A stretch of DNA of 33,109 nt from Acidobacterium sp. (lineage in GTDB: Bacteria > Acidobacteriota > Terriglobia > Terriglobales > Acidobacteriaceae): the NCBI GenBank assembly GCA_003152415.1, contig PMAD01000278.1, forward strand, positions 1 through 33,109, in the 5' to 3' direction. The notes under the pieces were generated by a model. The model ran no database searches, was not told the DNA's origin, and saw nothing but the letters and a program-made list of their open reading frames with translations. Positions within the stretch are counted from its first letter, which is position 1. Every line of letters starts with the position of its first letter. Below, in pieces: positions 2,606 through 30,800 of this stretch. Both the position numbers and the translations under genes were made by a program.

Positions 2606-2784
2606 AAGGCCAGGGTGGCGGACCTTCCGGTGCGCCATCGCGATGTGAAGCGTCTCTGATGCGCGCAAGCTGGCTCGGGCCGCTGATTCCGCGCAGTTCT
2701 GCAACTTGCGCTCGTTGTTTGCAGTCAATCCGGTTGCTAACCCTCTGAGTGTGCAGCATTCCCTCCTCTGGGAAGGAGAGCATC

Positions 2785-4098
2785 TTGAAGATCAGTGTTT
2801 TCGGACTGGGCTACGTCGGCGCCGTCTCGGCCGGTTGTCTCGCACACGATGGTCATGAGGTCGTCGGTGTCGACCCGGTTCAGCTCAAAGTCGATTTCAT
2901 CAACCAGGGTCATACGCCGATCATCGAACCGCAGATCGGGGAACTCATCTCCGAGAATGCGAAGTCGGGACGCCTGCGCGCCACCACCGATCCCGTGGCC
3001 GCGGTCCGGGACACCGAGCTGTCGTTCGTCTGCGTCGGCACGCCCAGTCAGCTGAACGGCAACCTCGATCTCTCGCATATGCGTCGCACCTGCGAGCAGC
3101 TTGGCGCCGCGCTGAAGGCCAAGAACGAGCACCATACCGTCGTCATCCGCAGCACCATCCTGCCGGGAACGATGCGCAACGTCGTCATCCCCATTCTTGA
3201 GGAGTTCTCGGGGAAGAAGGCTGGCGACGAGTTCGGCATGTGCAACAACCCGGAATTTCTGCGCGAAGGCTCCGCGGTCAAAGACTTCTATGGGCCACCC
3301 AAGACGGTCATCGGTGAGGTGAACCGCTGCAGCGGTGAGATTCTTGCAAGCCTCTACGCCAGTCTCGACGCTCCGCTGATCCGGACCACCCTCGAAACCG
3401 CCGAGATGGTGAAGTACGTCGACAACTGCTGGCACGCCCTCAAGGTTGGTTTCGCCAACGAAATCGGCAACCTGGCCAAGGCCATGGGTGTGGATTCGCA
3501 CGAGGTAATGAAGATCTTCATCCAGGATACGAAGCTCAACATTTCGCCAACCTATCTGATGCCTGGTTTCGCCTTCGGCGGCTCGTGTCTGCCCAAGGAC
3601 CTGCGCGCCCTGACCTATCAGGCAAAGTCGCACGACCTCGAGTTGCCCATCCTTTCCTCGATTCTCCCCAGCAACGAGATCCAGGTCAGGCATGGCTTGC
3701 AGCTGGTGCTGGAAGGCGGCCACAAGCGTGTCGGCATTCTCGGATTCAGCTTCAAAGCCGGTACCGACGACCTGCGCGAGAGCCCCGTCATCGATCTCAT
3801 CGAGCGTCTTCTGGGCAAAGGATTCGACCTGCGCATTTACGACAAAAACGTGAACCTCGCCAGTCTGGTCGGCGCGAATCGCGATTTCATCCTGAATCGG
3901 ATTCCGCACATCTCCAGGCTCATGATGCAGGACATGGATTCGGTTCTGCAGCATGCAGAGACCGTCGTTGTCGGCAACCGGGATCCCGATTTCAAAGAAG
4001 TGCCGAAGCGGCTTCGCGATGACCAGCGCCTGGTCGATCTGGTCCGCATCAGTGATCAAAGGAGCGGGAATGGCAACTATAGTGGCATCTGTTGGTAG
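2785..4098 (+). CDS. algD: GDP-mannose 6-dehydrogenase (AlgD family)
   Basis: This cytoplasmic enzyme oxidises GDP-mannose to GDP-mannuronate with two NAD+. The reading frame opens upstream, but TTG at 2785 is chosen: AAGGAG at 2773-2778 sits six bases ahead, and the protein then begins at the Rossmann motif GLGYVG (residues 7-12). The 437-residue product matches remembered Pseudomonas AlgD along its length: CVGTPS, NPEFLREGSA, FAFGGSCLPKD and the C-terminal GICW. The nucleophilic cysteine falls at residue 268, the same number as in Pseudomonas AlgD. Its 3' end overlaps the next gene by 29 bases. No alginate synthase gene (alg8/alg44 type) is visible, so the mannuronate probably enters a Wzy-type heteropolymer (inference). 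Confidence 0.95.
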   Translation: MKISVFGLGYVGAVSAGCLAHDGHEVVGVDPVQLKVDFINQGHTPIIEPQIGELISENAKSGRLRATTDPVAAVRDTELSFVCVGTPSQLNGNLDLSHMRRTCEQLGAALKAKNEHHTVVIRSTILPGTMRNVVIPILEEFSGKKAGDEFGMCNNPEFLREGSAVKDFYGPPKTVIGEVNRCSGEILASLYASLDAPLIRTTLETAEMVKYVDNCWHALKVGFANEIGNLAKAMGVDSHEVMKIFIQDTKLNISPTYLMPGFAFGGSCLPKDLRALTYQAKSHDLELPILSSILPSNEIQVRHGLQLVLEGGHKRVGILGFSFKAGTDDLRESPVIDLIERLLGKGFDLRIYDKNVNLASLVGANRDFILNRIPHISRLMMQDMDSVLQHAETVVVGNRDPDFKEVPKRLRDDQRLVDLVRISDQRSGNGNYSGICW

Positions 4099-8987: not shown

Positions 8988-10217
8988 ATGATGCAAACCT
9001 ATGGCACGCGGATGCGCTCCGAACTCGACGGTCCGCGCCTGCTGACTGGCGCAGTTTGCGTCTGCATTCTGGTCGTCATCCTGATCGCCGGACTTTGGCC
9101 ATTTCGTCCGCAAAAAAACGATGTGGCTTGGCTGCAGGGTGAGAACGGCATTCGCTTCGGCCATCGCGGCATTGTCGTCAGCACCAGGCCTCTTCGCGAA
9201 GATATACCCGGCGGCCCTTGTACTCTTGAGATTTACTTGCGACCCGCACGCGCTTCCGGATCGGGCACAATCGTTGCAGTGGATGACAACTCGGATCCTA
9301 AATATGTCTTCGCCTTGCGCCAGTTCGATGCGAGCCTTGCCGTGCAGCGGCCTGCGCTCGATGCGCGTGGAAACTTAGTTCGGCAGTGGTGGAGGACGGG
9401 CGGCGTATTCGAAAAAAACAGGAGCGTCGTCCTCACCATCACCAGCGTTCAGCGAAGAACGACCCTCTACGTTGACGGAGTTCCAGCCAGTGTCTCGTCG
9501 GATTTTGGGCTCAGCGACGCCGACCTTACCGGGGGGATGATCCTGGGCAATTCCGCGCTTCAGGACAGCTGGCACGGCGACATCCTCGGGCTCGCGATCT
9601 ATGACATCGCGCTTTCGCCGCCCGAAGTTGACGAACACGCCAGTCGTTGGTTGCGTGGGCAAGCGCCGGCAATGAACAGCGGTCACGTTCCCTCAGCGCT
9701 GTACAAGTTCGATGAGCACAGCGGGAACGTCGTCCATGACCAGGGCGCCGACGGAAACTCTCTGCTGATCCGGCCGCGCTTTTTCGTTCTGCATCCGGCA
9801 TTCCTCGAGCCGGTGTGGAAGCCGTTTCGAAGCCGCTGGGATGGCTGGATGACCCGGAGCTACTGGTCCGACATGGCCGTCAATATTGCCGGCTTCGTCC
9901 CGTTTGGATTTTTCTTTGCGCTCTGGTTTTTGCTGACGCCGGGTATCGCGAGGCCTCGCCTGACTGCGATTCTTCTTGGATTCGCGATCAGCCTGGTCAT
10001 TGAAACCCTGCAGTATTTTCTCCCCACACGGGACTCCAGCATGACCGATCTGCTGAACAATACGATCGGCGCCGCGCTTGGAGTGGCTTTGTGCAGGCCG
10101 GCTTTGGCGCAAAAACTGAGGGCCGAACATTTCGCAGCGGCGGAAGTCGACCCCATCGGGAACGGCGCCGCGAGTGCAACTCAACCGAGCCGGATGGGCA
10201 ACGGCCGGGTGCATTGA
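8988..10217 (+). CDS. LamG-like/VanZ-family membrane protein
   Basis: The 409-residue protein has a transmembrane helix at about residues 18-37. A periplasmic concanavalin/LamG-like beta-sandwich follows (about 60-230, with RTTLYVDGVPA and the ILGNSALQDSWHGDILGLAIYD run). A VanZ-type membrane region begins near residue 295 (DMAVNIAGFVPFGFFFALWF, then VIETLQYFLPTRDSSMTDLL). VanZ-family domains in polysaccharide and exosortase-type loci have no settled biochemical role. The LamG part suggests glycan or protein binding outside the membrane. No convincing ribosome binding site precedes 8988, and ATG 9012 in the same frame is an alternative. It is the first gene after the 8859 hairpin and probably heads the second operon. 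Confidence 0.8.
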   Translation: MMQTYGTRMRSELDGPRLLTGAVCVCILVVILIAGLWPFRPQKNDVAWLQGENGIRFGHRGIVVSTRPLREDIPGGPCTLEIYLRPARASGSGTIVAVDDNSDPKYVFALRQFDASLAVQRPALDARGNLVRQWWRTGGVFEKNRSVVLTITSVQRRTTLYVDGVPASVSSDFGLSDADLTGGMILGNSALQDSWHGDILGLAIYDIALSPPEVDEHASRWLRGQAPAMNSGHVPSALYKFDEHSGNVVHDQGADGNSLLIRPRFFVLHPAFLEPVWKPFRSRWDGWMTRSYWSDMAVNIAGFVPFGFFFALWFLLTPGIARPRLTAILLGFAISLVIETLQYFLPTRDSSMTDLLNNTIGAALGVALCRPALAQKLRAEHFAAAEVDPIGNGAASATQPSRMGNGRVH

Positions 10218-11423: not shown

Positions 11424-12011
11424 ATGCGCTTCACCGAGACGCCGATAGCGGGAGTATGGGTGATCGATCCGGAGTTTCGCGGCGACGATCGCGGACGATT
11501 TTTTCGCGCCTGGTGTTCGCGCGAATTTGCGGAGCACGGCATCGGGTTTCTGCCCCTCCAGGCAAATATGGGATTCAGCGCGCTGAAGGGCACGCTGCGC
11601 GGTATGCACTACCAGGTGGAGCCCGCGCTGGAAGCCAAACTCGTTCGCTGCACCCGGGGTGCGATGTTCGACGTGGCGCTCGATCTGCGGCCAGGCTCCG
11701 CCACATTCGGTCAGTGGTTTGGCGCCGAACTAAGCGAAGAAAATGGGCGCATGCTCTACCTGCCGGAGCATTGCGGTCACGGCTACCAGACCCTTGTGGA
11801 TGGGACGGAGATGCACTATATGACCTCGCAGGTTTACACGCCGAGTGCGTGCCGCGGCGCACGCTATGATGATCCCGCGTTTCGGATTCAATGGCCTCTT
11901 CCCGCTACCGCGGTTTCCGATCAGGACCGCGCCTGGCCGCTCACGCCGTTCAACGAGGCGGAGCAGAGTCGGGAAGCCGTCCTTACTGGGCATAAGCCCG
12001 AAAAGGTTTGA
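11424..12011 (+). CDS. rfbC: RmlC-family 4-keto-6-deoxyhexose 3,5-epimerase
   Basis: This 195-residue cupin enzyme belongs to the dTDP-4-dehydrorhamnose 3,5-epimerase family and has the usual family length. The signature LRGMHYQ holds the catalytic His62. A tyrosine at the end of YMTSQVY and the YDDPAFRIQWPL motif correspond to the other active-site positions. The family epimerises C3 and/or C5 of nucleotide-linked 4-keto-6-deoxyhexoses. No rmlA, rmlB or rmlD gene is present here, whereas rfbF and rfbG are. The natural substrate may therefore be CDP-4-keto-6-deoxyglucose rather than the dTDP sugar (inference). It begins seven bases after the methyltransferase gene and is probably co-transcribed with it. 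Confidence 0.85.
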   Translation: MRFTETPIAGVWVIDPEFRGDDRGRFFRAWCSREFAEHGIGFLPLQANMGFSALKGTLRGMHYQVEPALEAKLVRCTRGAMFDVALDLRPGSATFGQWFGAELSEENGRMLYLPEHCGHGYQTLVDGTEMHYMTSQVYTPSACRGARYDDPAFRIQWPLPATAVSDQDRAWPLTPFNEAEQSREAVLTGHKPEKV

Positions 12012-14731: not shown

Positions 14732-15622
14732 ATGAAAGTCGTTCTGTTCTGCGGTGGAATGGGTCTGCGCATTCGCGATGCGGAGAATGTTCCGAAGCCG
14801 CTGGTGCAGATTGGATACCGGCCGGTGCTCTGGCATGTTATGAAGTACTACGCCCACTACGGCCATAAGGATTTCATCCTCTGCCTCGGATACGGCGCGG
14901 ACGCGATCAAGCGCTACTTCCTCGACTACAGCGAGTGCGCGTCGAACGACTTCGTGCTGTCCCAGGGCGGCCGCAAGGTCGAGCTCTTCAACAGCGACAT
15001 TCACGACTGGCGCATCACCTTCGCCGACACCGGCATCAACTCCAATATCGGCCAGCGGCTGAAAGCGGTCGAGCGCTACCTCGATGGCGAGGAGGAATTC
15101 CTGGCCAACTACAGCGACGGTCTCACCGATCTCCCGCTTCCCCAGCAGCTCGATCATTTTCACCGCAACAAGAAGATCGCCAGCTTCCTGTGCGTCCTGC
15201 CCAACCTCAGTTATCACGTCGTCTCGACCGAGCCGGGCAGCAGCCTGGTGACCGGCGTCCACGCCATCACCAACGGATCGGTGCGCATCAACGGCGGCTA
15301 CTTTGCCTTCAAAAAAGAAATCTTCAACTACATCGAAGAGGGCGAAGAGCTCGTCATCGAACCATTCCAGCGCCTCATCGATGAGAAGCAGCTGCTCGGC
15401 TACACCTACGATGGCTTCTGGGCCGGCATGGATACCTTCAAAGACCGCCAGTCGCTGGAAAGCCTGTGGGGCAGCGGATCCGCTCCCTGGCATGCATGGA
15501 GAGGCGACAACGGCGCTGATGATCCCAAACCGTCTGCTCCGGTGCCGGTGGCCGAATTTCTCGACCGGCGCAGTGCGGTCGGCAACGGAATCACCGGGTC
15601 GCGCAAGGCCGTACGCAACTGA
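14732..15622 (+). CDS. rfbF: Glucose-1-phosphate cytidylyltransferase
   Basis: This enzyme makes CDP-glucose from glucose 1-phosphate and CTP, the entry step to CDP-linked deoxysugars. The N-terminus shows the nucleotidyltransferase loop GGMGLR (residues 8-13) and KPLVQIGYRPVLWHVMKYYAH. GYFAFKKEIFNYIEEGEEL and the GFWAGMDTFKDRQSLESLW ending are characteristic of the RfbF/DdhA group. AAGGAG at 14719-14724 lies seven bases before ATG 14732. The 296 residues exceed the usual length of about 257 because of a roughly 40-residue C-terminal tail after the catalytic domain. The gene is flanked by an imperfect 16-base direct repeat (14653-14668 and 15603-15618). It forms a pathway module with the SAF-domain oxidoreductase and rfbG downstream. 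Confidence 0.93.
   Translation: MKVVLFCGGMGLRIRDAENVPKPLVQIGYRPVLWHVMKYYAHYGHKDFILCLGYGADAIKRYFLDYSECASNDFVLSQGGRKVELFNSDIHDWRITFADTGINSNIGQRLKAVERYLDGEEEFLANYSDGLTDLPLPQQLDHFHRNKKIASFLCVLPNLSYHVVSTEPGSSLVTGVHAITNGSVRINGGYFAFKKEIFNYIEEGEELVIEPFQRLIDEKQLLGYTYDGFWAGMDTFKDRQSLESLWGSGSAPWHAWRGDNGADDPKPSAPVPVAEFLDRRSAVGNGITGSRKAVRN
15603..15618 (+). repeat. Downstream copy of the repeat, in the rfbF 3' end
   Basis: This copy codes for the terminal residues of RfbF just before its TGA. Together with 14653-14668 it brackets the gene. This would fit a partial duplication of an rfbF-like 3' end or a small rearrangement scar; chance is not excluded. Confidence 0.5.
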
Positions 15623-15671
15623 TCGAACCCAGACCTGACAAGTTTCCCCGACCACAAAAAAGAACACATCA

Positions 15672-15687
15672 TCGGCGACTCCGCCGA
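15672..15687 (+). other. Small GC-rich hairpin just before the SAF-oxidoreductase ribosome binding site
   Basis: TCGGCG (15672-15677) and CGCCGA (15682-15687) pair around ACTC. The stem ends seven bases before GGAG at 15694-15697, so it could modulate translation of the next gene. No regulatory ligand is suggested by its sequence. Confidence 0.3.
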
Positions 15688-15704
15688 ATGACTGGAGAGA
15701 TGCA

Positions 15705-17042
15705 ATGAGTGTCGATACTGCCTTGCAGAAGCTGGAAGCTTCCGGTAACCCGATTCGCGTCGGCATGGTGGGCGCCGGAGCAACGGGCCGAGCCATCGCC
15801 CTGCAGCTGGGAACGCCGGTTCCGGGCATGCGGCTGGTGGCGATTGCCAACCGAACAGCGGAAAACGCGGAGCGCGCCTTCCGCGAGGCTGGTTTCCCCA
15901 ACTGCGCCCTCGTCGATTCGGCGCACGAAGCCGAAGAGCAGATCGCACGCGGCGTGCCCGTTCTTACCACCGACCCGTCCGTCCTGACCGCTTGCCGCGC
16001 GATTGACGTGATCCTCGAAGTTACGGGCGCCGTCGAAGCCGCCGCCGGAGTCGTGCTCGAGGCATTCAAACACGGCAAGCACGTAGTGCTCGTGAATGCC
16101 GAGCTGGATTCCCTCGTCGGCCCCATCCTCAAGGTCAAAGCCGATGAAGCGGGCGTCGTGCTCACGCACACCGATGGCGATGAGCCCGGTGTTGCGATGA
16201 CCCTGCTGCGCTACCTGCGCACGCTTGGGCTGAAAATCGTCGCCGCAGGCAACATCAAGGGTATGGTCGACTACTATCGCAACCCCGAAACCCAGCGCGC
16301 GTTTGCCGAGAAGAACGATCAGGATGTCCGCAAGGTCACGTCCTTCGCCGACTCCACCAAGCTCTCGATGGAAGCCACCGTCCTCGCCAATGCCACCGGC
16401 TTCAAAGTTGGACGCCGCGGTATGTTCGGTCCGCCCTGCAACTACGTTCGTGAAGTCGCGAATCTCCTGCCCGCGAAAGAAATGCTCGAGACCGGCCTCG
16501 TCGACTTCGCTCTCGGTGCGGCTCCGCATACCGGCGCCTTCGTGATCATCCACGAAACTTCGCCGCTCAAGAAGGCCCAGCTCGCCTACTACAAGCTCGG
16601 CGATGGACCCTTCTACGTCTTCTACACGCCCTTCCATCTGCCGCACCTGCAGATCGCCTCCACCATCGGCCGCGCAGTCGTCAATCGCGATGCGACCGTC
16701 ACGCCCCTCGGCGGACCCGTCTGCGAAGTCGTCAGCGTCGCGAAGCGTGACCTGAAAGCGGGCGAGCGTCTCGATGGCATCGGTGGCTTTTGCACCTACG
16801 GACTCATCGACAACGCCGAGTCGGCGCGCGGCATGAAGGCGCTGCCCATCGGCCTCTCTGAAGGATGCGTCCTGAGGCGCAACCTGCCCAAGGACGCTGT
16901 CATCAGCTTCGACGACGTCGATGCCGTTCCGCAGGGTATCGCCGGAACCCTTTGGCAGGAGCAGAACGCTCGCTGGCCGCTGGCGAAGAAGGTTCCCGGG
17001 GAGTCCGCGCTGCCGTCTGAAATTGTCGCGGGAGTTCGATGA
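15705..17042 (+). CDS. Homoserine-dehydrogenase-like oxidoreductase with SAF domain
   Basis: The 445-residue product opens with a Rossmann NAD(P)-binding motif (GAGATG, residues 23-28) and the homoserine-dehydrogenase-like segment ILEVTGAVEAAAGVVLEAFK. HVVLVNAELDSLVGP and THTDGDEPGVAMTLLRYLRT follow. A SAF-like domain occupies about residues 333-420 (TPLGGPVCEVVSVAKRDLKAGE). It is not a threonine-pathway homoserine dehydrogenase: no ACT domain, and the context is sugar metabolism. GGAG at 15694-15697 supports ATG 15705. It lies between rfbF and rfbG and overlaps rfbG by ATGA. A role in oxidising, reducing or rearranging a CDP-linked or derived sugar is therefore likely, but the reaction is unknown. 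This is one of the most informative unknowns in the window. Confidence 0.8.
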   Translation: MSVDTALQKLEASGNPIRVGMVGAGATGRAIALQLGTPVPGMRLVAIANRTAENAERAFREAGFPNCALVDSAHEAEEQIARGVPVLTTDPSVLTACRAIDVILEVTGAVEAAAGVVLEAFKHGKHVVLVNAELDSLVGPILKVKADEAGVVLTHTDGDEPGVAMTLLRYLRTLGLKIVAAGNIKGMVDYYRNPETQRAFAEKNDQDVRKVTSFADSTKLSMEATVLANATGFKVGRRGMFGPPCNYVREVANLLPAKEMLETGLVDFALGAAPHTGAFVIIHETSPLKKAQLAYYKLGDGPFYVFYTPFHLPHLQIASTIGRAVVNRDATVTPLGGPVCEVVSVAKRDLKAGERLDGIGGFCTYGLIDNAESARGMKALPIGLSEGCVLRRNLPKDAVISFDDVDAVPQGIAGTLWQEQNARWPLAKKVPGESALPSEIVAGVR

Positions 17043-18127
17043 ACGTCAATCGCTCCTTCTGGCAAGGCCGGCGCGTTTTTCTCACCGGGCACACAGGCTT
17101 TAAGGGAAGCTGGTTGTCGCTCTGGCTGAACACGCTCGGAGCCGACGTCACCGGCTACGCGCTCGACCCGCCCACTCAGCCGAGTCTCTTCGAGCAGGCG
17201 CGCGTGGCGGGCAAGCTGCGCTCGCTTCGCGGTGACATTCGCGACTTCGCGCAACTCAAGAGCGCAATGGCCGAGTGCCGCCCCGAAGTCGTTCTCCATC
17301 TCGCGGCGCAGTCGGTCGTGAAGACCGGCTACGAAGACCCCATTGGCAACTACGCTTCGAACGTCATGGGCACAGTGCACGTGCTCGATGCGGTTCGCCA
17401 GCTGAAGCTGCGCTGCGCCTTCGTCAACGTCACCAGCGACAAGTGCTACGACAACCGCGAATGGATCTGGGGCTACCGCGAAGATGAGCCGATGTGCGGT
17501 CACGATCCCTACTCCAACTCCAAGGGCTGCGCCGAACTCGTCACCAGCGCTTATCGCGATTCCTTCTTTTCACCGGACACCATCGCCGATCACGGAGTCG
17601 CGCTCGGCAGCGCCCGCGCCGGCAATGCCATCGGCGGTGGCGACTGGACCAGCCATCAGCTCATCCCCGACCTCATGCGCGCCTTTCTCGACGGCCAGCC
17701 CTGTCTCATCCGCAATCCCTCCGCCTACCGGCCCTGGCAGTTCGTTCTCGAACCGCTGCGGGGATACCTGATGCTCGCCGAGCGTCTCGCCGAAAATGGC
17801 CCCCGCTTCGCATCAGGATGGAACTTCGGCCCGGTCGACTCCGATGTCCAGCCAGTTTCGTGGATTTCCGACGAGCTCGTCCGCCTGTGGGGTCCCGGCG
17901 CAGCATGGGCTCTCGACTCCGGCGCTCATCCGCACGAAGCCCACGCCCTCAAACTCGACGCCTCGAAAGCCGCCGCCGGCCTGCATTGGCGCCCGGTGCT
18001 CTCACTCAAACAAGCGCTCGCCTGGATCGCCGATTGGTATAAAGGTTTCAAGGCAGGCGCCGATCTGCAGCAACTCACCCTGAAGCAGATTGAGCAGTAT
18101 GAGGCCCTGGCCCGCGACGCCGGCTGA
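17039..18127 (+). CDS. rfbG: CDP-glucose 4,6-dehydratase
   Basis: This extended short-chain dehydrogenase/reductase converts CDP-glucose to CDP-4-keto-6-deoxyglucose. The NAD-binding loop GHTGFKG is at residues 17-23. TSDKCY is at 132-137, the RfbG version of the dehydratase active-site motif. The catalytic Tyr158 and Lys162 sit in YSNSK. ARAGNAIGGGDWTSHQLIPDL and YRPWQFVLEPLRGYL are typical of the CDP-glucose branch rather than dTDP-glucose dehydratases. At 362 residues it is of normal length. The start overlaps the preceding stop as ATGA. No RfbH-type 3-dehydratase follows, so the intermediate is probably not taken to a 3,6-dideoxyhexose by genes in this window. Confidence 0.93.
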   Translation: MNVNRSFWQGRRVFLTGHTGFKGSWLSLWLNTLGADVTGYALDPPTQPSLFEQARVAGKLRSLRGDIRDFAQLKSAMAECRPEVVLHLAAQSVVKTGYEDPIGNYASNVMGTVHVLDAVRQLKLRCAFVNVTSDKCYDNREWIWGYREDEPMCGHDPYSNSKGCAELVTSAYRDSFFSPDTIADHGVALGSARAGNAIGGGDWTSHQLIPDLMRAFLDGQPCLIRNPSAYRPWQFVLEPLRGYLMLAERLAENGPRFASGWNFGPVDSDVQPVSWISDELVRLWGPGAAWALDSGAHPHEAHALKLDASKAAAGLHWRPVLSLKQALAWIADWYKGFKAGADLQQLTLKQIEQYEALARDAG

Positions 18128-18233: not shown

Positions 18234-19556
18234 ATGTCTACGCCCAACATCGTTGTACTCGGAAGCGGTATGGCCGGCTTTGGAGCCGCCCACCGGCTGC
18301 ATCAGGAGGGTGTCGCGCCCGTCATGTACGACAAGAATCCGTACTACGGCGGCCACACCATGTCGTTCCGCTACGAGAGCGGCTTCCTCTTTGACGTCGG
18401 CCCACATATCTCCTTCACCAAAGACACCCGCATCCAGGAGCTCTTCGCCGAAAGCGTCGGTGGGCGCTACGAGACGATTCCCATTTCGCTCAATAACTAC
18501 TGGGAAGGCTACTGGCCTCCGCATCCGGTCCAGCTCCACATGCACGGCCTGCCGGAAGAGACCATCATCAAGGTCATCACGGATTTTCTCGAAGAGCGCA
18601 ACGCGCCCGAGCGGCCGATCAAAAACTATGCCGACTGGCTCTATGCCAGCTTCGGCAAGACCTTCGCCGAGTCGTTCCCCATGCGCTACACGCGCAAGTA
18701 CCACACCACCGAAGCCGAGAACATGAGCACCGACTGGCTGGGCCCGCGTATCTACCGCGCCAGCCTCGAAGAAATGCTGCGCGGCGCGCTCTCCGCATCG
18801 GCGCCGCAGGTGCACTACATCACGCATTTCCGCTATCCAAGCGAAGGCGGATTCCGCCTCTATCTCAACAAGTTTGTTCCCATGGGGAACATCAAGCTGA
18901 ACCACGAGCTGGTTTCCGTCGATCCCCGTGCGCGTGAGCTCCGCTTCTCCAACGGTCACGTCACTAACTACGATTCGCTGGTTTCCTCGGTGGCTCTGCC
19001 CGATCTGATTCGCATGATCAAAGGCGCGCCCCAGGACGTGGTCGATGCGGCTGGCCGCCTCACCTGCTCCACCTGTGTGCTGGTCAACATCGGCCTCAAC
19101 CGCGACGACATTTCCAACGCGCACATGACGTATTTCTACGATGCGGACATTTGCTTCAGCCGCCTCGGCTTCCCGTACATGCTCTCCGCGAAGAACGCCC
19201 CTCCGGGCACCGGCAACATTCAGGCGGAAGTCTACTTCTCGGAGAAGTACAAGCCCTTCCGCGGCAACGCCGACGACTGGATCGAACCGGTCATTCGCGA
19301 CCTTCGCAAGGTCGGCATCATTCGCGACGACGACAAGATCCTCGACAAGAAGGCGATGCTGCTCAAGTACGCCAACATCATCTTCGATCTCGAACGCGCC
19401 GAATCACTCAAAACAGTCCACGCCTACCTCGACGACATCGGCATCGCCTATTGCGGGCGCTATGGCGACTGGGGCTACATGTGGACCGACGAAAGCTTTA
19501 TCAGCGGCGAAAAAGCCGCCGAACGAGCTCTCTCCGCCGTCGTCTCGTCGACCTAA
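18234..19556 (+). CDS. FAD-dependent UDP-galactopyranose-mutase-like/amine-oxidase-like protein
   Basis: The 440-residue flavoprotein begins with a dinucleotide-binding motif GSGMAG (residues 10-15), then YDKNPYYGGHTMSF and FDVGPHISFT (GPH from residue 56). These resemble the GGH and GPHxFHT motifs of UDP-galactopyranose mutase. The rest follows the broader NAD(P)-binding amine-oxidase-like family, including a C-terminal FAD-contact segment near GRYGDWGYMWTDESFISGE. UDP-galactopyranose mutases are about 370-390 residues, so this is a relative rather than a clear orthologue. It may catalyse ring contraction or oxidation of a nucleotide sugar; the substrate is unknown. GGAGAG at 18218-18223 precedes ATG 18234 by ten bases. 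It is followed 50 bases later by a PIG-L deacetylase gene, suggesting a paired modification step. Confidence 0.75.
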   Translation: MSTPNIVVLGSGMAGFGAAHRLHQEGVAPVMYDKNPYYGGHTMSFRYESGFLFDVGPHISFTKDTRIQELFAESVGGRYETIPISLNNYWEGYWPPHPVQLHMHGLPEETIIKVITDFLEERNAPERPIKNYADWLYASFGKTFAESFPMRYTRKYHTTEAENMSTDWLGPRIYRASLEEMLRGALSASAPQVHYITHFRYPSEGGFRLYLNKFVPMGNIKLNHELVSVDPRARELRFSNGHVTNYDSLVSSVALPDLIRMIKGAPQDVVDAAGRLTCSTCVLVNIGLNRDDISNAHMTYFYDADICFSRLGFPYMLSAKNAPPGTGNIQAEVYFSEKYKPFRGNADDWIEPVIRDLRKVGIIRDDDKILDKKAMLLKYANIIFDLERAESLKTVHAYLDDIGIAYCGRYGDWGYMWTDESFISGEKAAERALSAVVSST

Positions 19557-19606
19557 ATCGTCGCCCTCGCCGGCTTCCCTTGTCGTACTTTGAAAGACCC
19601 ATCCCT

Positions 19607-20260
19607 ATGATCAAACTGAACCTCGATGTGAAGAAAGGCGGGGCCATCAAGGTCCTGTGCCTCGGTTCGCATTCTGACGATATTGAGATTGGCTGTGGCG
19701 GCACCATCCTTCGCCTCGTCGATCAGTATCCCGACTGTTCTTTCCACTGGGTGGTCTTCAACGCCATGGGCGTGCGCAAAGCGGAAGCGCAGAAAGCTGC
19801 GGAATCGTTTGCCGGCGCCGATCGGCTCGAGCGCGTGGTGCTGAAAGAGTATCCCGACGGCTTCATGCCCTTCGTCGGCTCCGAAGTGAAGGCGACCTTC
19901 GAGGAACTCAAGCAGAAGGTCGAGCCGGATCTCATCTTCACGCATCAGCGCCACGATGCCCACCAGGATCACCGGCTCCTGTCGGAGCTGACCTGGAATA
20001 CTTTCCGCAATCATTTCATCCTCGAGTATGAAATCCCCAAGTACGACGGCGACATGGGGCGGCCCTCCGTCTTCGTCCCGCTCACCAAGGAGATGTCCCA
20101 GGCCAAGGTGCGCAATCTGATGGACGGCTTTGCGTCGCAACGCAGCCGGAATTGGTTCCAGGAATCTACATTTCACTCGCTGATGCGGCTGCGCGGCATG
20201 GAATGCAATGCGCCCAGCGGCTACGCCGAGGCGTTCTATTGCCGCAAGCTGGTGCTCTGA
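19607..20260 (+). CDS. PIG-L family deacetylase
   Basis: The frame is open far upstream inside the flavoprotein gene, but ATG 19607 gives a complete 217-residue domain. The metal site motifs are HSDD (residues 22-25, usually AHPDD) followed by EIGCGGTI, and the HQRHDAHQDH block at 113-122. The family hydrolyses N-acetyl groups from GlcNAc-type substrates using zinc, in the cytoplasm or at the membrane. The first motif has Ser in place of the usual Pro, a minor variation. With a UDP-HexNAc dehydrogenase in the same locus, it may deacetylate a HexNAc sugar nucleotide or lipid-linked unit (inference). No strong ribosome binding site is visible before 19607. Confidence 0.85.
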   Translation: MIKLNLDVKKGGAIKVLCLGSHSDDIEIGCGGTILRLVDQYPDCSFHWVVFNAMGVRKAEAQKAAESFAGADRLERVVLKEYPDGFMPFVGSEVKATFEELKQKVEPDLIFTHQRHDAHQDHRLLSELTWNTFRNHFILEYEIPKYDGDMGRPSVFVPLTKEMSQAKVRNLMDGFASQRSRNWFQESTFHSLMRLRGMECNAPSGYAEAFYCRKLVL

Positions 20261-21802: not shown

Positions 21803-21900
21803 TCGAGTGAATCCGCATGACGAAATCGTGGCATTGGCCGCAACCGAAACGCGGCTCACAATGGTGAGCAGCACCCACGCTGTCCTGATTCTTGGTATCC

Positions 21901-23262
21901 ATGATGAGAGCAACGATGACCGTGACTTCTTTAGACAAAACCGCTGAATTGCTGCAGAAAATCGAATCCCGCCAGGCCCGCATCGGCATTGTCGGCATGG
22001 GCTACGTTGGCCTGCCGCTGGCTTTGCTGTTCAGCGATGCACGCTTTCGCGTAACTGGATTCGACATCGATTCCCGCAAAGTCGAAACCCTCAACGGCGG
22101 CGGCTCCTACATTGTCCGTATTCCCGGCACCGAGATTCAGCTGGCCCGCGAGAGCGGCTTCACCGCCACCGCCGACTACGCCGAGATCGCCGCGATGGAT
22201 GTCATCATCATCTGCGTGCCGACTCCGCTGAACGAGTACCACGAGCCGGACCTGAGCTACGTCACCGGAACCGTCAGCAGCCTCGCCCCGCATGTCCACG
22301 ATGGGCAGCTGATCGTCCTCGAGAGCACCACCTATCCCGGAACCACCGAGGAAGTCGTAGTCCCGCTGCTCGAGAAGGGAAATCCCGCTGGCCTGCGCAT
22401 CGCCCGCGATGCCTCCAGCTCCGGTTTCTACGTCGCGTTTTCTCCCGAGCGCGAAGATCCCGGCAACGACACCGTCGCCCGTCGCGATATCCCCAAAGTG
22501 GTCGGTGGCTGCGGACCCGCCGCTCGCGATCTGGCCTCCGCTGTCTACAAAACCATCTTCAACCGCACTGTGCCAGTCTCGTCACCCGCCACCGCGGAGA
22601 TGACCAAGCTGCTCGAAAACATCTACCGCTGCGTGAACATCGCTTTGGTCAACGAGCTGAAGCAGCTCTGCATGCGCATGGACATCGATCTCTTCGAGGT
22701 GATCGACGCGGCCAAAACCAAGCCCTTTGGCTTCCAGGCGTTTTATCCCGGTCCCGGCCTCGGTGGTCACTGCATCCCCATCGACCCGTTCTACCTGTCG
22801 TGGAAAGCGAAGGAATTCGACTTCAACACCCGCTTCATCGAGCTGGCCGGGCAAATCAATATCGGCATGCCTTACTTCGTGGTCGAGAACATCATCGAAG
22901 CCATGAGCCAGCAGGGCAAAGCGCTGCGCGGCTCACGCATCCTGATCCTGGGCCTCGCCTATAAGCGCGACATCGACGACCTGCGCGAGTCGCCCTCGCT
23001 CACCATCATCGAGCTCCTGCAAAAGCGCGGCGCTCACGTCGAATACAACGATCCCTTCTTCCCCACCGTCGGTCACGGCCGCAAATACGCGCTCAACATG
23101 ACCAGCACCCCCCTGGAGAAGATTCCGGAATTCGACTGCGTCGTCATCGTTACCGATCACTCGCAGTATGACTTTCCCGCCATCGTTGCCAGGGCGAAGC
23201 TGGTTGTCGACACCCGCAACGCCACCCGGAATATTGACGCCCCCAACATCGTAAAGTGCTGA
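21901..23262 (+). CDS. wbpA: UDP-N-acetylglucosamine 6-dehydrogenase (WbpA-like)
   Basis: This nucleotide-sugar dehydrogenase oxidises C6 of a UDP-HexNAc to the uronate with two NAD+. The Rossmann motif GMGYVGLPLA is near residues 34-43. The active-site segment GLGGHCIPIDPFYLSWKA places the catalytic cysteine at residue 291. SPEREDPGN and TRFIELAGQINIGMPYFVVE resemble the WbpA (UDP-GlcNAc) branch more than the UDP-ManNAc WecC branch, though this is a judgement by eye. The start is uncertain: ATGs at 21901, 21904 and 21916 are in frame and none has a clear ribosome binding site. It is a second uronate-forming dehydrogenase besides AlgD, with a different sugar class. It ends the second operon, 50 bases before a strong terminator. 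Confidence 0.9.
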   Translation: MMRATMTVTSLDKTAELLQKIESRQARIGIVGMGYVGLPLALLFSDARFRVTGFDIDSRKVETLNGGGSYIVRIPGTEIQLARESGFTATADYAEIAAMDVIIICVPTPLNEYHEPDLSYVTGTVSSLAPHVHDGQLIVLESTTYPGTTEEVVVPLLEKGNPAGLRIARDASSSGFYVAFSPEREDPGNDTVARRDIPKVVGGCGPAARDLASAVYKTIFNRTVPVSSPATAEMTKLLENIYRCVNIALVNELKQLCMRMDIDLFEVIDAAKTKPFGFQAFYPGPGLGGHCIPIDPFYLSWKAKEFDFNTRFIELAGQINIGMPYFVVENIIEAMSQQGKALRGSRILILGLAYKRDIDDLRESPSLTIIELLQKRGAHVEYNDPFFPTVGHGRKYALNMTSTPLEKIPEFDCVVIVTDHSQYDFPAIVARAKLVVDTRNATRNIDAPNIVKC

Positions 23263-23364: not shown

Positions 23365-26300
23365 TTACGGAATCGTCGCGGCGTATACGTTCGACGGCGC
23401 GCTTTCCACTCCCGACGCATCCACGCTCGTGACTTCGTAGTTGTAATTGCTGCCGCTCGCCACTGTGGTGTCCGTGTACGTCGTCGGCGTATTGACCGAC
23501 GTGTTCAGCAGTTCATACGACCCGCTGCCCGTCGACCGGTAGACGTTGTATCCCACTGCCAGGTCGGTTGTTTCCGTCGGTGCGTCCCAGGTCAGCTGGA
23601 CTTCATAGGATGCCGACGAGACGCCCGTCCCGCTCAGGGCGATCGTCGCCGTTGCTCCGCTGGTTGCATTGCTGGTGATTGTCACCAACCCCGTGGCCGC
23701 CCCGGCGGTCGTTGGATCGAACACCAGATCCAGCGTCTCGGACTGGCCTGAACTCAGAGTCACAGGGAACGTAACCCCTGACATCGTGAAGCCCGTCCCG
23801 GTCAGTGTTCCGGCGCTGATGGTGACCGCCGCCGTTCCCGACGAGGTCAGCGTCACGGTTTGCGTGGTGGGTGTGTTCAGGTTGACATTGCCGAACGCGA
23901 CGCTCGTCGATCCAAGCGTCAGTCCAATCGACCCTCCGGTTAGCTGCAGGACGGCAGTTTTCGCCGCGCCGCTCGCGGTCGCTGTCAGCGTTGCCGTTTG
24001 CGTTGAAGTGACCGCGGCAATCGTGGCTGTGAACGGAGCGGTTGTAGCGCCCGCCGCCACTGTCACCGAAGCCGGTACCGTGACAGCTGTATTGTTGCTG
24101 GCCAGGGTAACCACCAGCCCGCCGGTCGGTGCCACAGCACTCAGTGTCACCGTGCATGCATCCGTGCCCGCGGCCGAGAACGACATCGTCGTGCAGGTGA
24201 GCGAGCTCAGCGCGCCTGCTGTCGTGTCGCCCGTCCCGCTCAGACTGATCGTCGCCGTCGGATTCGTGGTGGCGTTGCTGGTGATAAGGACCGTTCCCGT
24301 CTCCGCTCCTGCCGTGGTCGGATCGAACGTCACCTGCAGCGTCGCGCTTTGTCCCGGATTCAGCGTCACCGGGATCGCCGCCCCGCCCAGGGTGAAGCCC
24401 GTTCCCGTCAGCGTTGCCGCGTTAATCGTCAGCGCAGCCGTACCGGATGACGTCACCGTCACCGACTCGCTCGTGGACGTGTTGATAGTTACATCTCCGA
24501 AGGAGAGGCTGTTGGTGCTCAGGCTCATCCCCGCCGTCTGCGCGTCCAGCTGCAGCGTGTAGATCTTCGAAACCCCGCTCGCCGTTGCCGTCAGTGCGGC
24601 AGCCTGCGTCGAAGTGACCGCTGCCACCGTGGCTGTGAATCCTGCGCTCGTAGCCCCGGCTGCCACCGTTACGGAAGCAGGCACGGTCACCGACGAATTG
24701 TTGCTGCTGAGAGTGACCGTCAGCCCGCCCGTTGGTGCGGCCGAACTCAGTGACACAGTGCACGAATCGCTGGCCGCGCCGCTGATCGTCCCATTCGCGC
24801 AGGAGAGCCCGCTGAGCGTTCCTCCCGCCGACTGTCCCGTCCCGCTCAGCCCAATCACTACCGTCCCGTTTGTCGCCGAGTTGCTGGAGATGGTGATCGT
24901 GCCCGTCTGCCCTCCCACTGTGGCCGGATCAAAACTCACCTGCACCGTTGCCGACTGTCCCGGATTCAGCGTTGCCGGGAACGTCGCCCCCGACATCGAG
25001 AAGTCGGTTCCCGTCAGCGTGGCCGAGTCAACGGTCAGCGGAGCGGTTCCGGTCGATGTCAGCGTGATCGTCTCGGTCGTGGATTTGTTGACGGTCACAT
25101 CTCCGAAATTGAGGCTGTTCGTACTCACGCTCAGCCCTGGAGCCTGTGCCACCAGCTGCAGTGCGTAAATCTTCGAAAGGCCGCCTGCGGTCGCAGTCAC
25201 GTTGGCCGTCTCGTTCGACGTCACCGCGGTGGCTGTGGCCGTAAAGAACCCAACCATCGCGCCCGCCGGAACGGTGACTGTGGCTGGCACCGTCAAAGCG
25301 GTGTTGCTGCTTGACAGATTCACCGTCAGTCCGCCCGCCGGCGCCGCCGCGGTCAGGTTCACCGTGCAAGCGTCACTGCCTGCACCTGTGATCGTCCCGC
25401 TTTGGCAGAAGAGCGTACTCAGTGTCCCCGCCACCGCATCGCCCGTGCCGCTCAGGCTCACCAGCGCCGTACCGTTGGTCGGAGCATTCGTCACAACCGT
25501 CAGCGTTCCGGTTGCCGCGCCCGCGGTGGCCGGATCGAATTTCACCTCCACCGTCACCGCGTTTCCAGGGTTCAGGGTCACCGGGAAGCTCTGTCCCGCT
25601 ATCGTGAATCCTGCCCCGGCCACCGTCGCCGAATTGATGGTCAACGCGGCCGTTCCCGACGACAGCAGCGTCACGAACTGAGGTGTCGCCTGCGTGTTGA
25701 TGGTGACATCGCCGAAGGACAGGCTGCTGGCGCTCACGCTCAGAGCCGCCGTCCCGCTGCTGGCCGCCGGCGGGCTCAGTTGCAGAGCAAACGTCGCGGA
25801 GCTCGTTCCCACGCTGGCCGTAATGGTCGCCGTCTGTGTTGCGCTCACCGCGGCCGCGATCGCCGTAAATGTTGCACTGCTCCGGTTAGCCCCAATCAGC
25901 ACCGACGAGGGCACCGTGAGGGCGGAGTCGCTGCTCGCCAGGCTCACCGTGTCGCCACCGCTGTCGGCCGGCGCGCTGAGCGTCACCGTGCAGCTGTCCG
26001 TCCCCGCGCCGGTGATCGTTGCACCCGTGCACGACACTGCGCTCACCGTGGCCGCAGACGTCGCCACCGTGCTGGCGTCCGTATACGTGTAGTCCGTGGA
26101 CTGCCAGTTCCCCGAGATCTCCGAGAGCAGCCGCACATACAGCGTCGCTCCGCTCGTCGGCAGTCCGGTTGCCGTCGCCGAAACCGTGTTCCCCGTCGCC
26201 ACGCCCTCTGTAAGGACACCTAGGTTCTGCGAGCCCGCGCCCGTCGATCCCAGCCACAGCTGGTATTCCGCCACGCCGCTTCCCGCTGACCATGTAAACG

Positions 26301-26883
26301 TCTCCGAGGAACCCGGCAACACGCTTCCCGGCGCCGGGCTGATCATCGCTCCCGGCGCACTCGCTTGCGCGTCTGCCATGCCCGTGCCGCTCAGGCTCAC
26401 AACCGGGTTGCCCGAGGTCGAGTTGCTGCTCAGCGTCAGGCTGCCCGTAGCCGCCCCCACCGATGTTGGTGTGAACTGCAAACTCACCGCGTACGTGCCA
26501 CCGGAGGCGATCGTGACCGGCATGCTGCTCTGCCCCATCACGGAGAAAGGCCCGGTCACGCTCACCTGGGAAATCTGCACCGCTGCCGTGCTCTCGTTCT
26601 TCACCGAAACCGACGCGCCGGCTGTCTGCCCTAACTGAACACTTCCAAAGGAAAGTGAATTCGCGGAAGCTACCAAACTACCGCTCGCCGCGTTGGCCAT
26701 GATACTTCCGCAACCCGACAGCATGAGCGAAACGCTGCACGCCGCCAACGCCAGCGCGCCCGCGCACCATATTTCTCTCCGCAGTCGGCGGCTCGGTTTG
26801 CGCTGAATGGGTTGGTTGCCGGAGGACGCGTGGACGACGCCGCGGGCAGACCCCGCGGAGGGTACGAAGAATATCGAGTGCAT
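23365..26883 (-). CDS. Large lipoprotein with alternating choice-of-anchor D (ASH) and Cys-paired modules
   Basis: The 1172-residue product has a basic N-region (PSRRLRRE), a hydrophobic stretch and a lipobox LSGC with the lipidated cysteine at residue 58, so it should be membrane-anchored. Five choice-of-anchor D/ASH-type domains (ending LSGTG) are seen, the first at about 68-168. An Fn3-like segment follows. Four roughly 100-residue modules then alternate with the remaining ASH domains at a DNA period of about 600 bases. Each module starts with two cysteines about 11-13 apart (for example SCANGTISGAASDSCTV), probably a disulphide. An Fn3 domain ends the protein (about 1088-1172, YNVYRSTGSGSYEL). 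GAGG at 26892-26895 lies eight bases before ATG 26883. The role is probably surface adhesion or matrix binding; no catalytic motif was seen. Confidence 0.85.
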   Translation of the reverse strand: MHSIFFVPSAGSARGVVHASSGNQPIQRKPSRRLRREIWCAGALALAACSVSLMLSGCGSIMANAASGSLVASANSLSFGSVQLGQTAGASVSVKNESTAAVQISQVSVTGPFSVMGQSSMPVTIASGGTYAVSLQFTPTSVGAATGSLTLSSNSTSGNPVVSLSGTGMADAQASAPGAMISPAPGSVLPGSSETFTWSAGSGVAEYQLWLGSTGAGSQNLGVLTEGVATGNTVSATATGLPTSGATLYVRLLSEISGNWQSTDYTYTDASTVATSAATVSAVSCTGATITGAGTDSCTVTLSAPADSGGDTVSLASSDSALTVPSSVLIGANRSSATFTAIAAAVSATQTATITASVGTSSATFALQLSPPAASSGTAALSVSASSLSFGDVTINTQATPQFVTLLSSGTAALTINSATVAGAGFTIAGQSFPVTLNPGNAVTVEVKFDPATAGAATGTLTVVTNAPTNGTALVSLSGTGDAVAGTLSTLFCQSGTITGAGSDACTVNLTAAAPAGGLTVNLSSSNTALTVPATVTVPAGAMVGFFTATATAVTSNETANVTATAGGLSKIYALQLVAQAPGLSVSTNSLNFGDVTVNKSTTETITLTSTGTAPLTVDSATLTGTDFSMSGATFPATLNPGQSATVQVSFDPATVGGQTGTITISSNSATNGTVVIGLSGTGQSAGGTLSGLSCANGTISGAASDSCTVSLSSAAPTGGLTVTLSSNNSSVTVPASVTVAAGATSAGFTATVAAVTSTQAAALTATASGVSKIYTLQLDAQTAGMSLSTNSLSFGDVTINTSTSESVTVTSSGTAALTINAATLTGTGFTLGGAAIPVTLNPGQSATLQVTFDPTTAGAETGTVLITSNATTNPTATISLSGTGDTTAGALSSLTCTTMSFSAAGTDACTVTLSAVAPTGGLVVTLASNNTAVTVPASVTVAAGATTAPFTATIAAVTSTQTATLTATASGAAKTAVLQLTGGSIGLTLGSTSVAFGNVNLNTPTTQTVTLTSSGTAAVTISAGTLTGTGFTMSGVTFPVTLSSGQSETLDLVFDPTTAGAATGLVTITSNATSGATATIALSGTGVSSASYEVQLTWDAPTETTDLAVGYNVYRSTGSGSYELLNTSVNTPTTYTDTTVASGSNYNYEVTSVDASGVESAPSNVYAATIP

Positions 26884-27846: not shown

Positions 27847-30800
27847 ATGTCGCCAGTGGTTGCTTCCCGTCGTCTGACGCCTGCCCGCGTCCTGTCCTTC
27901 CTTTTCGCCAATCTGGTCTGGCTCGCGCCTCTCTTCCTCGCGCCCGCAACCAACGCCTCCGCGGCAACCGACACCTACACCGTCGGGTCCACCGCCGATG
28001 ATTCGGGAGTCGTGCTGGCCACCGCGCAGACAAATTGCCCCGTCAGCACCGCTGGCACAAACACCACCGGCGACGGCAGCTGCACCTTGCGTGACGCGAT
28101 CATGGCGGCCAACGCCGATACTACGGCTACCGCTCTCGTCGTCGACATGACCACTATCGGCGGCACCATCACCGTCGGCAGCAATCTGCCCCAGATGTCC
28201 GTGGCTACCGGAACGACCTTCGAGGGTCCGGGTGCTGGCGCGCTCACGGTTTCTGGCGCGAATCTTTATCAGTTATTCGTGTTTCTGAGTGGTTCTGGAG
28301 GAGGGACCTTTCAGTACTTCACCATCGCCAACGGCTTCGTCAGTGCGACTGGAGGCTGCACCTGCGACCCAGGGTACGGCGCGGGCGTCTACGGCTATAC
28401 CGGTGTCCCGCTGATCCTGACCGACATGGTCTTTTCCGGCAACTCTGCGGCAAACGGCGGCGGTGCGGTCGTCGCGATCGGTGTACTCACCGTGACCGGT
28501 ACCACCTTCTCCAATAACACCAGTCCCGCCGCTGGCGGCGGTATCGCGGGCGCTCTCTACGTCATCGGCTCACCGGCCACGATCTACCAGAGCACCTTCT
28601 CCGGCAACACCGCCTGGATCGGCAGCGCTGTTTATACCTACACGCCGGTGACGCTGACCATCAGCGACAGCACATTTGCGAACAATTCAAATGGAACCGA
28701 AGGCGTCGTTGGCGGAAGCGGCGCGGTTTTCAACGACAACCTCAGTACTCTGACGATTCACGACAGCACCTTCTGGAACAACGTGGGCGCTGCCGGAGTG
28801 GGCGGCGCTCTGAACAACGCCGGGACCATGACGGTCACTGATAGCATCGTGGGCTCTCCGGGTGATTCGGGGAATGCGGACGAGTGCTACAGCAACAACA
28901 CGGTGAACGGACACGGGTGCCCCGCCAACGGCGATGCCAACGGCAACATCACAGCGCCGGCCACCTTCAATCTCGCGCCGCTCGGCTTCTACGGCGGGGC
29001 CAATGAGACCCTGCTGCCTATGTCAGGCAGCGCCGCCATTTGCGGCGGCAAGACAGGCGCCGGGCTCGATGCCGACGCCACCGGCGCCGCCCTCACCGTC
29101 GACGAGCGCGGCTTCCCGCTCGATCCCTCGTGCGGCGCAGGCACAACCGACGCCGGTGCTGTGCAGCTCAACCCCCTTGTTGTGAATTCCGCGACCGACG
29201 ACGGACCGGGAGCCGGAGCCAGCACCTGCACCACCGACTGCACACTGCGTGACGCCATCAACGTAGCGAATAACGCGGGCAACGGCGACATCACCTTCGA
29301 TTCCTCTCTGAATGGCAGCACCATCACCCTGGGCGACTCCACCGCGACCCCCGGCACCGCGCTCACCATCACCGGCGGCGTCAACATCGCCGGTCCCGGC
29401 GCAACCCTGCTCACCCTCTCCGGTCAGAACAAATACGAACCCTTCTACGTTGCCGCCGGATCGCTGAGCGTCTCCGGATTGACCATCACTAACGGCAGCG
29501 CGACCACCGGCACCAACGCCGGCTTCGGCGGCGCCATCCTCAACGGCGGTTCGCTGAGCGTCAGCAACGTTACGTTCACCAACAACACATCAGGTCCAAC
29601 CACCGGCGAAGGCGGTGCCATTTATGCCGTCGGGGCGTTGTCGGTGAGCGACAGCACCTTCGCAAGCAACACCGCAAACGCTGGAGCTGCGATCTACAAC
29701 AACTCCAACAGCGCGGCGTCGATCGACTACAGCACCTTCTCCGGAAATACGAACAACTACACCGGAACCGTGACTCACGCCGGTGCAGCGCTGTCGATCG
29801 CCAACAACACGTTTACGGGCAACGTGGCGAACGGTTTCGCCAATGAGTCCGACATCTATAACGACGGCACCGGATTTGCCGCCGCCAACAACATCCTCGG
29901 CGACGCCTCCGGTTGCCTCGACGCTACTTGCACCGGCAACGGCAACGTCCAGGCCGGCGTTGGCCTGACCCTTTCCGCTCTGGGCAACTACGGCGGACAG
30001 ACTCCGACCATCCTCCCGCAACCGGGCAGCACCGCCATCTGCGGTGGCTTGGTGGCTGATATTCCGTCCGGCTTCACCACCGACCAGCGCGGCTTCTCCA
30101 ACACCACCCCAGGACCCTATGCCTGCGCAGGAACGGCATCCGACTCCGGCTCCGTCCAGACCGATTACACCGCGGTGGCATTCGCTACCCCAGACGGGCC
30201 TTATGCCGGTGCGGCGACCGTTGCCGGCACCGTGCCCCCGGTCATCGTCACCGTCACCGAGAATGGCCAGAACGTCGGCGGCGTCACGGTACCCCTGATC
30301 TTCGCCGGCACGGGAACCGCCACCGGAACCTCCGCTGTCACTGTCGGTGGCACCGGCGCAACCTTTAGTGCCCTTACCGTCAGTGCGGCGGGCACCGACA
30401 CGCTGAACCTCAGCATGCTGGTGGTCGGCGCCGACACTCTGACCGCCGGTCCCGAAACCCTCAACATCGGCACCGCGCCCAACATACCGACCACAACCAC
30501 AGAGGCAACTCCTTCCCCGAACGCCTTCGTGGTCAGCGCCAGCGCGACCACCGTCGCCCTCAGTGCAACTGTTAAGCGCACCAGCAACAATTCAGTCGTG
30601 ACCGATGGCGACGTCACCTTCACCGTCTGCACCACGCAAACCTTCCCGTGCGGGGGCACCGTCATCGGCGCCGCGATCGGCCCGTTCACCCTCAACGGCA
30701 GCGGTGCGACCGGCAGCCAGAATTACAGCATCCCGGCCAACACTGCGGTAGGCACGTACTACGTCATCGCTTCTTACACCGATCCGGGTGGCGTAGGAGG

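Follow-up and report, generated by a model that had tools for sequence, protein, structure and literature searches.

Background

Streptose and dihydrohydroxystreptose (DHHS) require a ring contraction, and as of 2022 the enzyme responsible had been assigned for neither sugar (PMC9095892; here and below, articles are cited from the parts of their text available to us). The same source describes CBU1838 and StrM as double epimerases with which ring contraction was not observed, and calls it a key challenge that the enzymes for two remaining DHHS activities are still to be identified. We report on a gene for an oxidoreductase with a SAF domain (the SAF protein) in "the window", by which we mean the whole stretch of 33,109 nucleotides analysed, positions 1 to 33,109 of contig PMAD01000278.1 of an Acidobacterium sp. 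assembly (GCA_003152415.1). We think it somewhat probable that this protein is a DLO1-type DRL reductoisomerase acting on an epimerised CDP-4-keto-6-deoxyhexose, the ring of which it would contract and reduce to give a CDP-3-C-hydroxymethyl sugar. Family, predicted fold, residue pattern and gene linkage are what the analysis gives directly; from them we infer the substrate, the chemistry and the product.

In the type-II DXR reaction a carbon-carbon bond next to a ketone is shifted, and the aldehyde that this yields is then reduced. Applied to a pyranose 4-ulose, such a sequence leads to a furanose with an exocyclic branch carbon, which is the streptose skeleton. UDP-apiose synthase, a short-chain dehydrogenase/reductase (SDR) acting on UDP-glucuronate, proceeds by way of a 4-keto intermediate, ring contraction and reduction. 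Relatives of DXR-II have been split into DXR-II, DLO1 and DLO2, the last two uncharacterised; K191, K193 and T229 anchor the substrate or fosmidomycin in DXR-II, position 229 is Leu, Ile or Val in DLO1 and Thr in DXR-II, and proteins of Coxiella burnetii and Streptomyces griseus are listed among DLO1 in Table 1 of that article (PMC3847144). In the HS:41 system of Campylobacter jejuni, a cytidylyltransferase, a 4,6-dehydratase, a 3,5-epimerase, a C4-reductase and an FAD mutase produce CDP-fucofuranose and CDP-6-deoxy-altrofuranose (PMC12369002). The fold family and DLO1 were thus already known, to which this analysis adds the link with rmlC and a proposed function in sugar synthesis; no paper giving DLO1 or DRL proteins a sugar-nucleotide or ring-contraction role was found in the literature searched, which lay mostly outside subscription journals.

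Results

Judged by its sequence and its modelled fold, the SAF protein is a relative of DRL (type-II DXR).

15705..17042, + strand: DRL-family (apparently DLO1-type, SAF-domain) oxidoreductase, proposed nucleoside diphosphate (NDP)-4-ketosugar reductoisomerase; PF21135, NAD_binding_3 and SAF domains, best PDB matches 3upl/3upy, tree and residues

Its catalytic domain matches PF21135 (DRL_cat, E 1.6e-43) and lies between the NAD-binding and SAF domains in the Pfam scan, the order of domains that defines the DRL/DXR-II superfamily. By sequence, the nearest PDB entries are those of the Brucella type-II DXR, 3upl and 3upy (E about 3e-65; 31% identity). An AlphaFold2 model with a mean pLDDT of 90.8 superimposes on 3upy with a Z score of 51.3 and an rmsd of 1.8 A over 422 residues; among the structure matches listed, all but 3upy and 3upl are type-I DXR, with Z scores of 17-20.

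The residues suggest a more particular placement. Of the three published DXR-II anchors the window protein keeps K193 alone, so that it lacks the residue set of DXR-II proper: Brucella K191 is replaced by N183 (N in 97% of the clade described below), and T229 by L220 (L in 62% of the clade, V in the four proteins from streptomycin-type clusters). L220 falls within the published DLO1 range for position 229, which is mostly Ser (94%) in 16 outgroup, DLO2-like rows, within the published DLO2 range. The SAF protein therefore looks DLO1-type, an assignment that rests on this residue and on the published DLO1 list. Polar residues at window positions D216, K219, E223, N229 and H311 are common to the Brucella enzyme, the 16 DLO2-like rows and the clade, and K219 and E223 are predicted to be catalytic. 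Invariance confined to the clade is seen at R169, R192, R238, Q197 and further positions; it is plausible that the clade-specific R169, R192 and R238 bind the nucleotide diphosphate.

A scan with the SAF protein yielded 57 loci from many phyla. The window falls inside a large clade that comprises 71 of the 96 rows of the first tree (SH-aLRT 94) and 78 of the 98 rows of a second tree built without five long-branch rows (SH-aLRT 96). The 73 clade loci counted below are 47 of the 57 loci from the scan, 25 further genome loci and the window; they are not independent, as many are close relatives (five are from Bosea, for example), and two of them, L115 and L117, lie outside the first tree and were assigned by identities of 48-49%. 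Loci cut by contig ends (L024, L037, L045) and a decayed one (L125) were set apart from the clade counts; L056-L058 and L073 (a fragment or no DRL) were dropped, L001 and L099 are duplicates, and weak second DRLs of G413, G677, G744, G648 and G770 were left aside. In the phylum of the window PF21135 occurs in 16 of 396 genomes, and in a sample of the class around Marinobacter in 35 of 369. A sample of an actinobacterial phylum gave a DRL-family match in 64 of 396 genomes, with strong genes in many small genomes (L152-L181); when the loci of seven of those 64 were inspected, rmlC, SDR and cytidylyltransferase genes stood beside the DRL in L226, L228 and L229, and none of them did in L225 and L230.

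A search by tblastn with the window's RmlC placed rmlC within about 8 kb of the DRL in 71 of the 73 clade loci versus 1 of 26 outgroup loci, several of which have short flanks; L050, an outgroup locus that this search scored as negative, carries a divergent RmlC-like domain downstream in the Pfam scan. In 55 of the 73, rmlC lies no more than 600 nt upstream on the same strand. An SDR of a 4-ketosugar type is present in 65 clade loci versus none of the 26 outgroup loci, and is of the RfbG type in 36, GalE-like in 19 and glucuronate-decarboxylase-like in 10. A cytidylyltransferase of one of two types accompanies 62 of the 73, and StrL/RmlD-like genes are rare (three weak matches in 73 loci). For the GalE-like SDR the nearest solved relatives are 6vo6 and 6vo8, which we take to be C. 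jejuni Cj1427. Cj1427 is described as a C4-dehydrogenase (PMC10680097). For the decarboxylase-like SDR the closest solved protein is UDP-glucuronate decarboxylase; this SDR is always accompanied by a UDP-glucose-dehydrogenase (UGDH)-like gene. DRL and RmlC are thus constant in these neighbourhoods, and what makes the 4-keto substrate differs from locus to locus. UGDH and a glucuronate-decarboxylase-like SDR stand beside rmlC-DRL at L111, L113, L115, L119, L033 and L054, which suggests a CDP-apiose-like product there.

Streptomycin-type clusters provide a second line of evidence. We searched 392 genomes of one genus, taken to be Streptomyces, and found a DRL-family gene in 27. A StrB1 at least 75% identical to that of L215 is present in four genomes, and some StrB1-like match in 133, among which the four clusters and five other genomes were inspected; among solved structures the L215 protein itself is closest to 1BWD (E 5.6e-216). 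In all four clusters a clade DRL with the clade residue pattern lies on the contig of StrB1, within about 22 kb. It apparently stands in the place of StrU, a name that we assume for that position. Among 13 DRL loci that were inspected in the 27 genomes, the nine outside these clusters had no sugar neighbours matching the queries used. In the five genomes with StrB1 at 66-70% identity, StrD, StrE, StrL, StrM and DRL were unmatched within about 19 kb; a distant DRL-family gene does occur in one of the five, G1318, on a different contig.

One of the four clusters is altered. G1502 (L214, L237) still has StrD and StrM, with strE cut to a frame of 64 amino acids and strL fragmented. An RfbF-like cytidylyltransferase gene (293.7 bits; cut-off 300.25), a GalE-like SDR and RmlC adjoin the retained DRL. 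The cluster looks as if its sugar supply had been exchanged and its DRL kept, an arrangement that fits, and does not prove, a DRL that contracts a substrate retaining the 6-hydroxyl. On this reading the product of the cluster would carry a hydroxystreptose unit.

The Coxiella line bears on DHHS. CBU_1834 is RmlA, CBU_1835 is annotated as a protoporphyrinogen oxidase and CBU_1837 as an NAD-dependent epimerase/dehydratase (PMC3539893, PMC6384241); no paper naming CBU_1836 was found in the literature searched. A Coxiella-like genome of 1.7 Mb contains gene remnants ordered rmlC, SDR, DRL, oxidase in a single stretch of 42% G+C, and because of this order CBU_1836 is suggested to be the DRL. The rmlC piece is about 89% identical to 7pvi over 108 residues (12 differences). 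We take 7pvi to be CBU1838, since it carries the Met described for CBU1838; it is not among the accession numbers printed in the available part of PMC9095892. The oxidase pieces are similar by eye to two CBU_1835 peptides (PMC6384241). When one oxidase fragment was compared with UDP-galactopyranose mutase (UGM), no PDB match was obtained, so that likeness to UGM is claimed for the window protein only.

In the window itself the genes for RfbF, the SAF protein, RfbG and the epimerase lie where the original prediction placed them, and the SAF gene is coupled to rfbG as that prediction held, through an ATGA that contains both its stop codon and the start codon of rfbG.

14732..15622, + strand: divergent glucose-1-phosphate cytidylyltransferase (the RfbF type linked to PIG-L); TIGR02623 202.8 bits, 1tzf E 3.4e-49
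17039..18127, + strand: RfbG, CDP-glucose 4,6-dehydratase yielding CDP-4-keto-6-deoxyglucose; TIGR02622 466.9 bits, cut-off 278.45
11424..12011, + strand: RmlC-like 4-ketosugar 3,5-epimerase, the genome's second copy; PF00908 E 7.6e-58
18234..19556, + strand: UGM-like flavoenzyme (Pfam amine oxidase), proposed CDP-sugar ring mutase; 4dsg E 7.1e-33, predicted fold
19577..20260, + strand: PIG-L/LmbE-type deacetylase, start assumed; PF02585 E 4.5e-16

The source genome consists of 357 contigs (4.25 Mb) and is 81% complete. At this locus its closest named relatives belong to the Acidobacteriota, with L002 97% identical over the SAF protein. The Pfam scan covered 22 translations of the window, including an extended version of another in the set and a matchless frame that is possibly no gene. 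RfbF scores below its equivalog cut-off (300.25), its nearest structure being the solved glucose-1-phosphate cytidylyltransferase 1TZF, and the RmlC-like protein just below its own (153.9 bits; cut-off 155.75); because of these scores both appear to be divergent members of their families. With RfbG well above its cut-off, the pair that makes CDP-4-keto-6-deoxyglucose is present as predicted. No DegT/RfbH-type protein was detected among the 22 translations, in agreement with the reported absence of RfbH, and the best RfbH match in the 81%-complete genome reaches 209.1 bits (cut-off 423), so that by these searches the window lacks the pathway to CDP-3,6-dideoxyhexoses. The claim that the epimerase has no rml partner holds for the window and fails for the genome, another contig of which carries an rmlB-A-C-D set. 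This set has its own RmlC, 37% identical to that of the window, so that the genome holds two and the epimerase studied here is the second.

The predicted model of the putative amine oxidase at 18234-19556 matches 4dsg_B (Foldseek E 1.1e-35, TM 0.88), and on this basis the protein is, by homology and model, UGM-like, of the eukaryotic type and with the UGM fold. PIG-L is present in 31 of the 36 clade loci that have the window's type of RfbF versus 1 of 26 with the canonical type; the two types never occur together at any of the 73 loci. An order rfbF-SAF-rfbG conserved across genomes, which the original prediction proposed to look for, proved to be local: it was found in 6 of the 57 loci (some cut by contig ends) and the window, and the widely conserved unit is rmlC-SAF.

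Three further observations concern the surroundings. Two distinct genes of the UDP-glucose/GDP-mannose-dehydrogenase family flank the cluster (2749-4098 and 21892-23262). Long frames with repeated Ig-like domains (ASH/HYDIN-type, He_PIG) adjoin the polysaccharide cluster at 23365-26883 (- strand) and 27847-33108 (+ strand). At 8988-10217 a LamG-type lectin domain is fused to a VanZ-like domain in one protein.

Discussion

The pathway that we propose would begin with RfbF and RfbG, which would provide CDP-4-keto-6-deoxyglucose, and the RmlC paralogue would epimerise this intermediate at C3 and C5. The DRL would then perform a DXR-like carbon-carbon rearrangement beside the ketone, by which the old C3 would become an exocyclic aldehyde on a contracted furanose, and reduction with NAD(P)H would convert the aldehyde to a hydroxymethyl group. 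The predicted product is a CDP-5-deoxy-3-C-(hydroxymethyl)pentofuranose of the dihydrostreptose type, the ring forms of which the UGM-like flavoenzyme may interconvert before transfer to a polysaccharide. Ring contraction is favoured by the DXR-like fold and by the streptomycin-type clusters, in which a DRL accompanies StrL; the Coxiella-like locus favours it less strongly. The core idea of the original prediction, a joint alternative fate for the CDP-sugar, is supported by the rmlC-SAF linkage, and of the three fates that it named (epimerised, branched or oxidised) we infer "branched" to be the best supported; its interpretation as a whole is partly supported.

Several facts pull the other way. 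Eight of the 73 clade loci have no SDR, 11 no cytidylyltransferase and two no rmlC. The RmlC pocket residue equivalent to M123 of CBU1838 (located by a simple HG motif) was tried and discarded as a predictor of substrates with a 6-hydroxyl, as the pattern is the opposite of that expected: it is Phe in 11 of 17 loci with a GalE-like SDR and Tyr in 26 of 36 RfbG loci. Three of the four streptomycin-type clusters keep StrL apparently intact, their StrD, StrE, StrL and StrM all being complete or almost so in length, and G1502 has another StrL-like protein elsewhere in the genome (58% identity), which is why its arrangement is not proof. The window has a UGM-like mutase, the HS:41 counterpart of which follows a plain C4-reductase. 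An RmlD paralogue has been held the most likely contraction enzyme (PMC9095892). For the Coxiella-like DRL the highest scores are those with L050 and L068, sister rows of the window's clade, so that membership in the window's clade was rejected and it is counted as a wider relative. Finally, one article places DHHS in cbu0825-cbu0856 and credits cbu1831-cbu1838 with "sugar components" alone (PMC5843353), whereas both regions are counted as suggested for DHHS elsewhere (PMC9095892); this conflict slightly lowered our estimate for ring contraction and raised that for the reductase considered next.

The SAF protein could be a plain NAD(P)H-dependent C4-ketoreductase in place of an RmlD-type enzyme, in which case the product would be an unbranched CDP-6-deoxyhexopyranose, made furanose by the UGM-like neighbour. 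The window does contain relatives of every other HS:41 enzyme, with the DRL at the place of the C4-reductase, and RfbG is the only SDR among the 22 translations scanned with Pfam, a scan that did not use HS41.18 as a query and that leaves the rest of the genome open. A mere reductase would leave unexplained both the use of a DXR-type fold where an SDR reductase is common and the clade DRLs in streptomycin-type clusters that already hold the RmlD-like StrL, and no more than 27 of the 73 clade loci yielded the UGM-like gene; we regard this role as rather unlikely. A later role, on the branch carbon or a subsequent intermediate (for example the redox step between the hydroxymethyl and aldehyde groups of dihydrostreptose and streptose), with ring contraction left to another enzyme such as StrL, would account for the joint presence of StrL and DRL in streptomycin-type clusters and would accord with the described oxidation of streptose at its C-3 hydroxymethyl group (PMC9095892). 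It is made improbable by the scarcity of StrL/RmlD-like genes in the clade, where no other contraction enzyme is evident, and by the closeness of rmlC upstream, which suggests consecutive steps.

The two remaining readings follow from family resemblance. With 31% identity to the Brucella enzyme and a near-identical fold, the SAF protein might be a true type-II DXR that makes methylerythritol phosphate for isoprenoids. This was rejected as very improbable, since two of the published fosmidomycin-anchoring residues are replaced and a type-I DXR is encoded in the source genome (455.2 bits; cut-off 315.7), and the clade sits among sugar-nucleotide genes. The original prediction called the protein homoserine-dehydrogenase-like, and its NAD-binding domain does match that family; the resemblance ends there, as the catalytic domain and the whole fold are those of DRL, and the homoserine dehydrogenases among the listed Foldseek matches (6dzs, 3mtj) reach a TM score of only 0.34-0.42 of the query. 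An amino-acid dehydrogenase that lies in the cluster by chance would also have to explain an rmlC linkage that recurs across many phyla, and we give this idea almost no credence.

A wider proposal can be made, which we find plausible and a little short of probable: rmlC-linked DRLs would be general nucleotide-sugar ring contractases with DXR chemistry whose SDR partner sets the product, dihydrostreptose in streptomycin clusters would be made by the DRL instead of StrL, and the missing DHHS enzyme would likewise come from this family. Pairing with RfbG would then lead to dihydrostreptose-type sugars, pairing with a GalE-like SDR (a C4-oxidase) to hydroxymethyl-lyxose (DHHS-type) sugars, and pairing with UGDH and a glucuronate-decarboxylase-like SDR to CDP-apiose-type sugars. 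The proposal offers one testable candidate family for the contraction of both streptose and DHHS and would connect the synthesis of sugar nucleotides with reductoisomerase chemistry of the isoprenoid type. It also predicts that environmental bacteria from many phyla make rare branched sugars of three classes.

Compared with known systems, the SAF protein has the domain order, the fold and five polar residues of the Brucella DRL/type-II DXR (3UPL, 3UPY), from which it differs in the loss of the K191 and T229 anchors, in its clade-specific arginines, in its sequence and in its setting among rmlC and other sugar-nucleotide genes. It resembles DLO1 in the Leu/Val at position 229, and the published list of that group includes Coxiella burnetii and Streptomyces griseus; no function is given in the available part of PMC3847144, and what we add is its association with rmlC and a proposed part in sugar metabolism. 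HS:41 and the window share counterparts of the cytidylyltransferase, the 4,6-dehydratase, the 3,5-epimerase and the FAD mutase, and differ where HS:41 has a C4-reductase and the window a DRL. As in the streptose and DHHS systems, a DRL protein is clustered in the window with a 4-ketosugar-forming enzyme and an RmlC-type epimerase; the window's genes, however, are of the CDP and not the TDP type, a UGM-like mutase is added, and no StrL-like gene was found in the window. The types of step proposed for the window are those of UDP-apiose synthase, with the difference that the putative contractase is DXR-like instead of an SDR.

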